Source: Candidatus Polarisedimenticolaceae bacterium (GTDB lineage Bacteria > Acidobacteriota > Polarisedimenticolia > Polarisedimenticolales > DASRJG01). Taken from it: a stretch of DNA of 64,000 nucleotides. Each line of letters starts with the position of its first letter. The stretch's first letter is position 1. Under the pieces are notes generated by a model. It ran no database searches, was not told the DNA's origin, and worked only from the letters and a program-made list of their open reading frames with translations. The stretch is taken from assembly GCA_036376135.1 (NCBI GenBank), contig DASVAW010000059.1, positions 1-64,000 of the forward strand. Direction: 5' to 3'. Below, in pieces: positions 20,642 through 24,227 of the stretch. The position numbers were made by a program, and so were the translations under genes.

Positions 20642-21227
20642 GCAGCCGCAGCACTTCCAGCCGGAAGTGGTCGAACTGCAGCGGCTTCATCAGGCACAAG
20701 TCCGCACCGGCGTCGTACATCTTCCGGAAGGCGTCATGCTCCGGGAACGCCGTGATGGCGAGCACCTTGATCCCCCGCGTCTCCGGATTCTCACGAATGG
20801 AGCGGCACAGGGAGATCCCGTCCACGCGAGGCATCATCACGTCCAAGACGACCAGGTCGGGCTGGAGCGATCCGATCTTGATCCCCGCCTCGTAGCCGTC
20901 GGAGGCCTCCTCGATCCGGAGGCTCGGCTCCATCTCTCGAAGCACCCGTCGGACGATCTCGCGGATGTCCTGTTCGTCGTCGACGACGAGCACGGTTCGG
21001 GGTCGCTGCTGCCCGGAGAAGAAGTTCTCGTCGATCGGGATGTCGTACTTCTCGAGGAACTCCCGGAAGTCCTCGGAGCTCACGCGGTAGTGACCGCCCG
21101 GAGTCGAGAACGCCTGGAGTTTCCCCGACTTGATCCACTTGAGCACGCCGTCGTTCGTCACGGCGCAGTACCGGGCGACTTCCGAGGTGGTGAAGAAACG
21201 GCGTCCGCTATCGCTCTGCACGGCCAT
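20604..21227 (-). CDS. HTH-REC response regulator (excisionase-type DNA-binding N-terminus)
   Basis: This 207-residue protein reverses the usual order. A MerR/excisionase-like HTH (FFTTSEVARYCAVTNDGVLK, then AFSTPGGHYRV, residues 11-50) comes first. A receiver domain (VLVVDDEQDIREIVRRVL, LVVLDVMMPRVDG, LCLMKP) comes after. The second Asp of VVDDE and the Asp of VLDVMMP form the acidic pocket and phosphorylation site. No partner kinase is nearby. A paralogue of the same build lies at 41771. GGAG precedes the ATG by six bases. Targets are unknown. Confidence 0.88.
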   Translation of the reverse strand: MAVQSDSGRRFFTTSEVARYCAVTNDGVLKWIKSGKLQAFSTPGGHYRVSSEDFREFLEKYDIPIDENFFSGQQRPRTVLVVDDEQDIREIVRRVLREMEPSLRIEEASDGYEAGIKIGSLQPDLVVLDVMMPRVDGISLCRSIRENPETRGIKVLAITAFPEHDAFRKMYDAGADLCLMKPLQFDHFRLEVLRLLNEAQRGQAVAG

Positions 21228-21243
21228 GACCCGCTCCTATCGC

Positions 21244-21276
21244 GTCGAAATCCTTCGACTTTCGCCGTAGTCGGCG
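21244..21276. repeat. Two adjacent inverted repeats upstream of the HTH-REC gene
   Basis: GTCGAA-ATCC-TTCGAC occupies 21244-21259 and CGCCG-TAGT-CGGCG occupies 21263-21276. They lie 17-50 bases before the start codon. A possible minus-strand promoter (TTGCAT 21322-21317, 16 bases, TATATT 21300-21295) would place them in the leader, so they may be operators or hairpins. Confidence 0.4.
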
Positions 21277-21360
21277 CTTTCGTGCCCGCCCCCGAATATA
21301 AGTCCCGGCTCTTCGGATGCAACTACACGGCGGCGCGGAGGGGGAACGGGGGTCCCGGGT

Positions 21361-21390
21361 TTGACAACCCCCGGCCGGCAAGGCTAGGAT
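21361..21390 (+). promoter_or_regulatory. Promoter of tRNA-Arg(ACG)
   Basis: TTGACA (21361-21366) is followed after 18 bases by TAGGAT (21385-21390). It ends 56 bases before the tRNA. A T-rich run follows at about 21399-21406. The -35 lies in a small GGGTT-TGAC-AACCC dyad. Confidence 0.6.
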
Positions 21391-21446
21391 TCGGCGTCTT
21401 TTTTTCAGCCGGGTCACACGGGAAACCGCGTTCCGGGTCCACAGGC

Positions 21447-21520
21447 CGGACCGTAGCTCAGTTGGATAGAGCGACTGGCTACGAACCAGTAGGTCGGGGG
21501 TTCGAATCCCTCCGGTCCGA
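21447..21520 (+). tRNA. tRNA-Arg(ACG)
   Basis: Acceptor arms CGGACCG (21447-21453) and CGGTCCG (21513-21519) pair fully. The anticodon arm is ACTGG-CTACGAA-CCAGT with anticodon ACG. The T arm GGGTTCGAATCCC is canonical. CCA is encoded at 21521-21523. The ACG wobble adenosine is the substrate of TadA, whose gene begins 53 bases downstream. Confidence 0.97.
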
Positions 21521-21575
21521 CCACCTTCCGGGCTTCCCGGGTGGATCCGATCGCGGTTGTTTCGTCGAGGGGCGC

Positions 21576-22169
21576 ATGCACGAGCACGAACGGTTCATGC
21601 ACGTCGCCTTGGACGAAGCCGTGCTGGCCCGAGCCGCCGGTGAGGTCCCCGTCGGGGCGGTCGTCGTCCTCGACGGCCGGATCGTCGGACGCGGCCACAA
21701 CGCATCGCTGGCCTTGACGGACCCGACGGCGCACGCGGAGGTGCTCGCGCTGCGCGACGCCGCCCGCTCCGTCGGGAACTACCGGCTCGTCGGAGCGACG
21801 CTTTACTGCACCGTCGAACCGTGCCTCATGTGCCTCGGTTCTGCCATGCACGCAAGGGTGGCGAGACTGGTGTTCGGTGCGTCGGATCTGAAGGTCGGCG
21901 CGGTGGGCCGGCTGGCCGCGCTCGAGGAGCTCGGGGCCGACTTCAATCACCGGTTCGAAGCCGTCGGCGGGGTGCTCGCGGAGAAGGCGGCCGACTTGCT
22001 GCTGGAGTTCTTCAGGGAGCGTCGCGTCGCGGGGAAGCAATTCGTTCCGGAGTCGGATGCGGAGAGGTACCGAAGTGGCCGTAACGGGGGCGCCTCGAAA
22101 GCGCTTTGTCTGGGTGACCAGGCACGTGGGTTCGAATCCCACCCTCTCCGCCACCAGCACTCCGGTTGA
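21576..22169 (+). CDS. tadA: tRNA-specific adenosine deaminase TadA, with C-terminus read through a tRNA gene
   Basis: ATG 21576 gives 197 residues. [11 protein letters not shown] supplies the zinc-binding His and the catalytic Glu, and [12 protein letters not shown] the two zinc-binding cysteines. This is the cytidine-deaminase-fold tRNA-A34 deaminase that makes inosine in tRNA-Arg(ACG), encoded just upstream. Homology ends near [10 protein letters not shown]; there is no stop codon there. The frame runs through the whole tRNA-Ser(CGA) gene and stops at TGA 22167-22169, so about 36 residues are translated tRNA sequence. A sequencing error hiding a stop is possible but not indicated. Confidence 0.9.
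22061..22150 (+). tRNA. tRNA-Ser(CGA), inside the tadA reading frame
   Basis: Acceptor arms GGAGAGG and CCTCTCC pair. The anticodon loop is CTCGAAA (anticodon CGA, stem GGCGC/GCGCT with one G-T pair). A long class II variable arm and T arm GTGGG-TTCGAAT-CCCAC follow. CCA is encoded at 22151-22153. The gene lies wholly within the last codons of tadA, same strand. Confidence 0.95.
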
Positions 22170-22199
22170 TGCCGCGTGGACGACGGGGTTCCGCCTTTC

Positions 22200-22286
22200 G
22201 GAGAGATGACCGAGTGGCTGAAGGTGCACGCTTGGAAAGCGTGTGTACGGGAAACCGTACCGAGGGTTCGAATCCCTCTCTCTCCG
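22200..22286 (+). tRNA. tRNA-Ser(GGA)
   Basis: Acceptor arms GGAGAGA and TCTCTCC pair. Anticodon arm is CACGC-TTGGAAA-GCGTG with anticodon GGA. The variable arm GTACGGGAAACCGTAC and T arm GAGGG-TTCGAAT-CCCTC are clear. CCA is encoded at 22287-22289. It starts 49 bases after the tRNA-Ser(CGA) body ends and 30 bases before the SRP RNA. Confidence 0.96.
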
Positions 22287-22316
22287 CCAGCGGGACGATG
22301 ATGCGATCGAGATTGC

Positions 22317-22419
22317 GGGGCCCGAGCCCTGTGCACTGCAACGCCGCGAACCCCGCCAGGCCCGGAAGGGAGCAACGGTAAGCGGACCGCTGCAGGTGCC
22401 GCAGGTCCACTTGGGCCCC
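22317..22419 (+). ncRNA. ffs: 4.5S signal recognition particle RNA
   Basis: The termini GGGGCCC (22317-22323) and GGGCCCC (22413-22419) pair. The apical domain contains CCAGGCCCGGAAGGGAGCAA, matching the conserved GGAA tetraloop and the asymmetric loop bound by Ffh. About 103 bases is the usual length of the short bacterial form. It lies 23 bases before dnaX, as scr does in Bacillus subtilis. It directs co-translational membrane targeting with Ffh and FtsY. Confidence 0.94.
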
Positions 22420-22442
22420 TTCCCATTTCCGGGGGCGACGCC

Positions 22443-24227
22443 GTGTATCAGGTTCTCGCGCGAAAGTGGCGGCCTCGGGGGCTGGACGAGCTCATCGGCC
22501 AGGACCACGTCGCGCGGACGCTGCGCAACGCCTTCGGCGCAGGCCGGATCGCTCACGCCTACCTCTTCGCCGGCGTGCGCGGCACCGGAAAGACCACCGT
22601 CGCACGGATTCTCGCGAAGAGTCTGAACTGCGAGAAGGGCCCGACCGCGAACCCGTGCGGCACGTGCGTCCCCTGCCTCGAGATCGCGGAGGGGCGCGCG
22701 CTCGACGTTCTCGAGATCGACGCGGCGTCCCGAACCGGCGTCGACGACATCCGTGAGCTGCAGGAGGTCGTGGTCTACGCCCCGGCGCGGGACCGATACA
22801 AGGTCCTCATCGTCGACGAGGTGCACATGCTCTCCAAGAGCGCGTTCAACGCGCTCCTGAAGACCCTCGAGGAGCCGCCGCCGCGAGTCGTGTTCGTGCT
22901 CGCCACGACCGAGCTGCACAAGGTCCTGCCGACGATCCTCTCGCGCTGCCAGACTTTCGAGTTCCGCCGTGTCCCGCCGCGCGAGGTCGCCGCGCACCTC
23001 CGGAAGGTGTGCGACGCAGAGAAGATCGTCGTTTCGGAGAAGACGCTCGACCGCGTCGCCCGGGCGGGCGAAGGTTCCGTCCGCGACGCGCTCTCGGTGC
23101 TCGAGCGCGTGCTCGCGTTCTGCGGCAGCGAGATCGCGGATGAGGACGCCTTCTCGCTTCTCGGCTCGGTCAAGACCGAGGTGCTCGCCGGGCTCGTGTC
23201 CGCGCTCGTCGCCCGCGACGCCGCGGGGGCGCTCCGGACCTTCGACGAGGTGATCCGGGCCGGTCACGACCTCCTCCAGTTCTGGGCCGAGTTCGTCTCG
23301 GTGGCGCGCGATCTCGCGGTGTTGTCGGTCACCCCCGACGGGGGGGAGCTTCTTGCACGCCCCGCCGACGAGAGTCGGGCGATCGCCGACGCCGCCGGCG
23401 GCTGGTCGACCGACGACCGCGTCCGGGCCTTGCAGATCCTGCTGGACCTCGAGCCTGCGTTGCGGGGAGCTTCGCAGCCCCGGTTCGTGTTCGAGGCCTG
23501 CCTGCTGCGCCTGGCGACCCTGGGGGACCTGCGGAGCGTCGAGGATCTGCTGGCCGAGCTGCGCGGCGACGACCCTCCCGGCGGCGCCGCCCCGTCTGGG
23601 GGAAGGCCGACCCCGTCCCCGACCCCCGGGACGCCCTTCGTCCCCCGCCCGGCTCCCGCTCCGCCCGATCCCAAGCCTCCGCCGAAACCCCCGGCCGGGC
23701 CCGCGGCCCCGCCGCCGAGCAAGCCCGGCGGCCCCAGGCGTGTGGAAGATCTCGTCGAGGCGCTGCGCGCGCGGCGTCCGATGCTCGAGGCGATGTTGGA
23801 GGAGGCGGCGACGCTCCGGCTCGAGGGCGACGACGTCGTGGTCGCCTTCTCCCCCGGCGCGGAGGCGGTCCGCCGGATGTTCGAGCGCGACGACACGGTC
23901 GCCTTCGTCCGGCAACTCGCCGTGGAGGTGTTCGGCTCGAGCCTCGGGCTGCGCTTCGAGAGCGGGGATGTTGCGGCGGCCGTTCCGGCCTCCGCGAGTG
24001 CCACGGCGGGTCCGGCGGCGAGTCCGACGGTCAGCCCGGACGAGACTTCGTCGGACCCCGCCCCCACCCGCCAGCAGCTGTTCGACGGCGCCCGGCGCGA
24101 TCCGTCGATCCAGCGCCTGCTCCGGGAATTCGGTGCCCAGATCGTCGACGTCCGCCCCCTCGAGCTCCCTCGCGCCGAGCCTTCGCTCGGCGAGGACCTC
24201 CCGGGCGCGGGCGAGGAGAACGCATGA
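22443..24227 (+). CDS. dnaX: DNA polymerase III tau/gamma subunit
   Basis: GTG 22443 opens a 594-residue clamp-loader subunit. [19 protein letters not shown] is the family N-terminus. [16 protein letters not shown] (44-59) is the P-loop. A four-cysteine zinc module follows ([16 protein letters not shown]). [11 protein letters not shown] is Walker B, and [13 protein letters not shown] contains the SRC box. A very Pro-rich linker spans about residues 380-435 before the tau-specific tail. I saw no A-rich slippery heptamer for programmed frameshifting, so gamma may not be made. Synteny with the SRP RNA, ybaB and recR is widespread. Confidence 0.96.

Follow-up and report, generated by a model that had tools for sequence, protein, structure and literature searches.

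How can an enzyme and a tRNA be produced from the same DNA strand when no stop codon separates their genes? The question was raised by the window analysed here (the whole stretch of 64,000 nt), in which the initial annotation had described a tadA frame with no stop after the conserved TadA fold, running through tRNA-Ser(CGA) to TGA 22167-22169. The window belongs to G000, a GC-rich genome of 4.4 Mb assembled in 179 contigs. A genus of its phylum has a TadA 95.7% identical to that of Geothrix limicola, by which the phylum is taken to be Acidobacteriota.

The tadA frame spans a complete tRNA-Ser(CGA) gene

The features of the locus are as follows:

21361..21390, + strand: sigma70-like promoter match TTGACA-18-TAGGAT (consensus match)
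21447..21523, + strand: tRNA-Arg(ACG) with encoded CCA, 52 nt 5' of the tadA start codon
21576..22169, + strand: tadA reading frame of 197 aa, from ATG 21576 to TGA 22167-22169, spanning the entire tRNA-Ser(CGA) gene
21576..22031, + strand: conserved TadA domain, residues 1-152, with deaminase motifs TAHAEV and PCLMC in the translation
22029..22060, + strand: in-frame linker from the end of the TadA fold to tRNA base 1, ten residues and 2 nt without a stop
22061..22153, + strand: tRNA-Ser(CGA), 90 nt plus encoded CCA; expected RNase P cut at 22060/22061
22167..22169, + strand: TGA closing the tadA frame, in the spacer ahead of tRNA-Ser(GGA)
22200..22289, + strand: tRNA-Ser(GGA) with CCA
22320..22419, + strand: bacterial small SRP RNA (ffs)
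22443..24227, + strand: dnaX-like frame (DNA polymerase III gamma/tau), named from sequence only

Residues 2-155 of the tadA product match the NCBIfam TadA equivalog NF008113 with 168.1 bits (cut-off 150), the Pfam dCMP_cyt_deam_1 match has an E value of 4e-28, and both zinc deaminase motifs, HAE and PCxxC, are present. Solved TadA structures align up to about residue 152-156. Past about residue 152 the frame encodes the ten-residue linker, then the residues read from the tRNA and then a few more. The tRNA was called on the tadA strand by both ARAGORN and Rfam, at 22061-22150 or, including the CCA, at 22061-22153; it is a complete same-strand gene inside frame 21576-22169, and all its 93 bases are read. 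These data confirm the tadA frame without a stop ahead of tRNA-Ser(CGA) as a real, homology-verified feature.

A missing stop alone is weak evidence, because this GC-rich genome has many open frames that run into tRNAs: at the 25 tRNAs examined in G000 there are 22, each with at least 60 upstream codons. The GC content at the three codon positions is 0.77/0.45/0.88 in tadA and 0.76/0.52/0.90 in the dnaX-like frame, and a gene-like pattern was found in none of the 22 control frames, which leaves tadA as the sole verified coding frame among those examined. Since missing stops by themselves prove nothing, the case for run-through rests on TadA homology and on the relatives; a chance open frame as the explanation of tadA is ruled out by the homology.

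The overlap is shared by relatives within the order

Ten genomes of the order were compared, comprising f1 (G000 and G001, of different genera), its sister family f2 (G002 and G003, two genera) and f3 (six genomes). The order tadA, tRNA-Ser(CGA), tRNA-Ser(GGA) is present in 10/10 of them; in all those whose contig reaches far enough (8/10), tRNA-Arg(ACG) is found upstream of tadA. G001, the only other f1 genome compared, has the same run-through, with a TadA 79% identical to that of G000, a linker of 35 nt in both genomes and a tRNA-Ser(CGA) that is 100% identical. In f2 the linker is 45 nt long, the tRNA is entered in a different frame and the stop is a TAA at tRNA bases 22-24. In all six f3 genomes tadA stops 3-29 nt ahead of the tRNA. 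The comparison of the junction in relatives that had been proposed thus rules out a base error, G001 having no stop ahead of the tRNA and f2 stopping only inside it.

The tadA frame of G001 touches two tRNA genes, as it spans tRNA-Ser(CGA) and ends at a UGA formed by bases 8-10 of tRNA-Ser(GGA) (L004 positions 1980-2157, locus reverse-complemented).

In a TadA tree, f1 and f2 form one clade (support 98/89), so that the overlap is kept in related species, fully in two genera and partially in two sister genera. Because f2 stops inside the tRNA and groups with f1, the simplest history would be a single loss of the upstream stop in the f1+f2 ancestor, outlasting the split into two families.

The linkers of G000 and G001 have the same length and no sequence conservation, and no conserved peptide was found in the extension when these two genomes were compared. 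Only the tRNA-encoded part is alike, being fixed by the tRNA; residues outside it differ, and no function of the tail is therefore indicated. Given length and composition, the chance of finding no stop in the linker is 0.64-0.87 per genome, with a product of about 0.27 for the four genomes of the clade, and between each of these linkers and a stop lie 3-6 single-base changes. Neutrality predicts open linkers after the requirement for the stop has gone. The unusual point is that the upstream stop ceased to be required, not the open linkers themselves.

tadA/tRNA-Ser pairs in a wider sample

The survey sampled tadA in many phyla, at 190 loci, and a tRNA-Ser was counted when it lay on the same strand at most 300 nt downstream. 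This was so at 91 loci (80 CGA, 11 GGA). The survey rows are not independent, so the counts hold for this sample and should not be read as rates: the tadA stop lies ahead of the tRNA in 84/91 pairs and inside it in 5/91, and the frame runs through in 2/91, both of f1. The five internal stops are TAA at bases 22-24 (twice), TAG at 8-10 (twice) and TGA at 12-14 (once). tadA and tRNA-Ser are anciently linked, they rarely overlap, and often it is the tRNA sequence itself that provides the stop. As 84 of the 91 pairs keep a stop ahead of the tRNA, its loss is normally selected against.

Outside the clade, independent partial overlaps were observed at L075, L198 and L203, where tadA stops within tRNA-Ser(CGA), at TGA 12-14 in a Nitrospirae genome and at TAG 8-10 in two other families of the window's phylum. 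On the 5' side, tRNA-Arg(ACG) lies on the same strand less than 300 nt upstream of tadA at 20 of the 185 loci with enough upstream sequence (window 21447-21576, L004, L007-L009, L011, L013, L014, L027, L033, L080, L091, L100, L102, L112, L115, L117, L120, L132 and L134), in Acidobacteriota, Rokubacteria, Deltaproteobacteria and Planctomycetota. Four Firmicutes-type loci have tRNA-Arg(CCT) in that place. L024, a contig titled Klebsiella pneumoniae MAG, encodes a TadA 60% identical to that of the window, followed by tRNA-Ser(CGA), tRNA-Ser(GGA) and tRNA-Gly, unlike enterobacteria; this record is probably misnamed.

Maturation of tRNA-Ser(CGA) and ribosome rescue genes

No second copy of tRNA-Ser(CGA) was found in G000-G003. 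Being single copy, the tRNA can therefore come only from the tadA locus, and RNase P, in cutting, must separate the tadA message from its stop and leave a nonstop fragment. From the mature 5' end at 22061, the cut is placed at 22060/22061. The last whole tadA codon ahead of it is GAT (Asp) at 22056-22058, two nt of the next codon remain, and the fragment would end in ...GAT-GC. Such an end would not be mended by A addition, as the leftover GC plus A cannot make a stop. The proposal that maturation severs the stop from the tadA message is borne out by the single-copy status of the tRNA.

Rescue of stalled ribosomes had been named as the fallback, and at the level of gene presence this agrees with what was found: G000 encodes a tmRNA with the tag GNSNYALAA and SmpB, which together make up the trans-translation machinery, and in addition ArfB (138.6 bits, cut-off 100). 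Missing rescue machinery in G000 is thereby ruled out. In G001, SmpB and ArfB are present, and a tmRNA gene was not found with the Rfam model, by blast with the G000 tmRNA or with ARAGORN on the best match, which probably reflects an assembly gap rather than true absence. This genome, too, carries a nonstop-prone tadA.

Two further observations concern the tRNAs of the locus. Predicted pairing between the leader and the trailer of tRNA-Ser(CGA), CCGGAGU with ACUCCGG, would lengthen the acceptor stem (window 22024-22169). TadA enzymes (tRNA adenosine-34 deaminases) form inosine at position 34 of their classical substrate, tRNA-Arg(ACG), so that for tRNA-Ser little can be made of the comment that the enzyme is itself a tRNA editor, although the tRNA-Arg(ACG) gene is found a short way 5' of tadA.

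Probable tolerance of an ancient stop loss, and alternative explanations

A scan of 21200-22600 gave 21361-21390 as the sole promoter-like match (1 found, 0.1 expected), and no terminator-like site was found from this match to past the tRNAs. A shared transcript is favoured because the only promoter-like site precedes tRNA-Arg and nothing resembling a terminator follows until past the tRNAs. Our preferred reading, to which we assign a probability of about 0.62, is that tadA and tRNA-Ser(CGA) overlap on one such transcript after an ancestral stop loss that has long been tolerated and was not selected for regulation. The two genes would be co-transcribed and overlap on that RNA, the ancestor of the clade having lost the tadA stop that normally precedes the tRNA. 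A ribosome arriving before the tRNA folds and is cut would read through it to the TGA at 22167 and make a TadA with a tail of 45-46 residues. Should RNase P act first, the mature tRNA would be released together with a tadA fragment whose last codon has only two of its bases, and ribosomes stalled on this fragment would be freed by tmRNA/SmpB or ArfB. Ribosome and RNase P would thus locally exclude each other on any shared transcript, and each RNA copy should yield either properly finished TadA or tRNA-Ser(CGA), not both. The loss has most likely been tolerated in a gene from which little product is needed. We infer competition between translation and maturation, and tagging of TadA, with no selected function. 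On the other hand, part of the tadA transcripts might end uncut.

The same arrangement could be a selected homeostatic switch, in which RNase P that is fast relative to the supply of pre-tRNA would cut tadA to a nonstop message, with TadA tagged and destroyed, and a pile-up of precursor in fast growth would give more read-through and more TadA. We consider this unlikely. The upstream stop is absent in 4/4 genomes of the clade and kept in 84/91 pairs elsewhere, although it could be restored by the few base changes given above for each linker, and these four lineages could mean more than tolerance. A like logic was proposed for selB/selC (Mukai 2021, PMC8124441), and the gene for a TadA substrate, tRNA-Arg(ACG), is encoded just upstream. 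However, frame, linker and tail vary within the clade, an ordinary stop is retained in 6/10 genomes of the order, and open linkers are the chance expectation after the stop has gone. That an old stop loss has been tolerated appears more likely than a switch under selection, because neither the linkers nor the residues after the tRNA are alike in G000 and G001, and the openness of the linkers needs no selection. Quite doubtful, for its part, is the specific proposal that maturation of an essential tRNA acts as an off-switch for an essential TadA, whereby RNase P would render tadA nonstop, tmRNA would tag the product and TadA output would follow pre-tRNA supply relative to RNase P capacity, with the substrate tRNA-Arg(ACG) on the same transcript. 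Taken as a whole, the initial annotation is partly supported: the run-through, the loss of the stop on RNase P cleavage and the presence of tmRNA agree with it; the competition it describes is a prediction, and a regulatory role is not favoured, given an unconserved tail and six of ten genomes without overlap.

Separate transcripts were also considered: tRNA-Ser(CGA) would be made from a promoter inside tadA, and the tadA mRNA would be translated through a slowly processed tRNA, leaving the overlap almost without consequence. The tRNA could have a promoter of its own within tadA that escaped the scan, for instance a non-sigma70 one, and the predicted leader-trailer helix, by extending the acceptor stem, could slow RNase P. 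No promoter-like match was found within tadA by the scan, which covered sigma70 promoters. Leader-trailer helices are predicted as often in relatives without overlap, and a special helix slowing RNase P was rejected on that ground; moreover, no transcript of a single-copy tRNA is useful unless the tRNA is matured from it. We regard separate transcripts as improbable. A base or stop codon lost from the linker by sequencing or assembly error, conceivable for a 179-contig assembly and an otherwise unconserved linker, is extremely unlikely and, on the genomes compared, refuted unless both assemblies carry equivalent errors, as the frame and the linker length recur, with an identical tRNA, in G001, an independent genome from another genus, and the sister genomes of f2 also lack a stop ahead of it.

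Comparison with known systems

Ten related genomes provide a natural series at one conserved junction, with the stop before, inside or after the tRNA, which permits translation and tRNA maturation to be tested against each other on one RNA, and also the load of nonstop mRNA in normal growth. Overlaps of this sort are easily missed, since a coding frame that runs into a tRNA gene is usually trimmed or discarded in automatic annotation.

A programmed nonstop mRNA is known for ArfA of E. coli, where RNase III cuts in a hairpin and regulation was shown by experiment. As with ArfA, a ribonuclease would leave the tadA message without a stop and tmRNA is predicted to tag the product; unlike there, the cut would come from RNase P maturing a tRNA, and regulation is a hypothesis.

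In animal mitochondria, polyadenylation can complete stop codons. This is no remedy for tadA, where A addition after GC cannot make one, and the genome of 4.4 Mb is far from a compact organelle genome. The likeness to overlaps of tRNA and protein genes in these mitochondria, of which PMC8124441 cites tRNA-Lys within Armadillidium vulgare cox1, is that excision of the tRNA cuts a coding message.

No report of a tadA/tRNA-Ser overlap was found in the literature searched, and only selB/selC came up as related. There, the 3' end of selB contains the whole tRNA-Sec gene (selC) in Alphaproteobacteria, and the two overlap in part in Dyella/Luteibacter and Nitrospirae; it was termed the first case of a tRNA gene nested within a protein frame of bacteria. 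Its relatives stop inside or before the tRNA, and a nonstop-mRNA logic was put forward as a hypothesis (Mukai 2021, PMC8124441). The tadA case is alike in that a lengthened protein frame takes in an entire same-strand tRNA gene, the stop in close relatives falls within the tRNA or shortly ahead of it, and tRNA processing would, as hypothesised for both, leave a nonstop mRNA. In both, the length of tRNA plus CCA is a multiple of three (93 for tadA; 96 or 93 for selC). The selB stop often, though not universally, overlaps the start of the conserved ORF that comes next, which the tadA stop does not. A TGATG coupling at 22167-22171 to a downstream ORF was rejected, as that ORF reads only tRNA-Ser(GGA) and SRP RNA and G001 stops elsewhere. 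SelB carries the tRNA that it overlaps and TadA does not. The regulatory part is an unproven hypothesis in both systems. tadA/tRNA-Ser(CGA) is of the same kind as selB/selC; what is new is an ordinary elongator tRNA, in single copy, in a different gene and a different phylum, Acidobacteriota. The single published bacterial example, tRNA-Sec in selB, is thus extended to an elongator tRNA and a probably essential enzyme.
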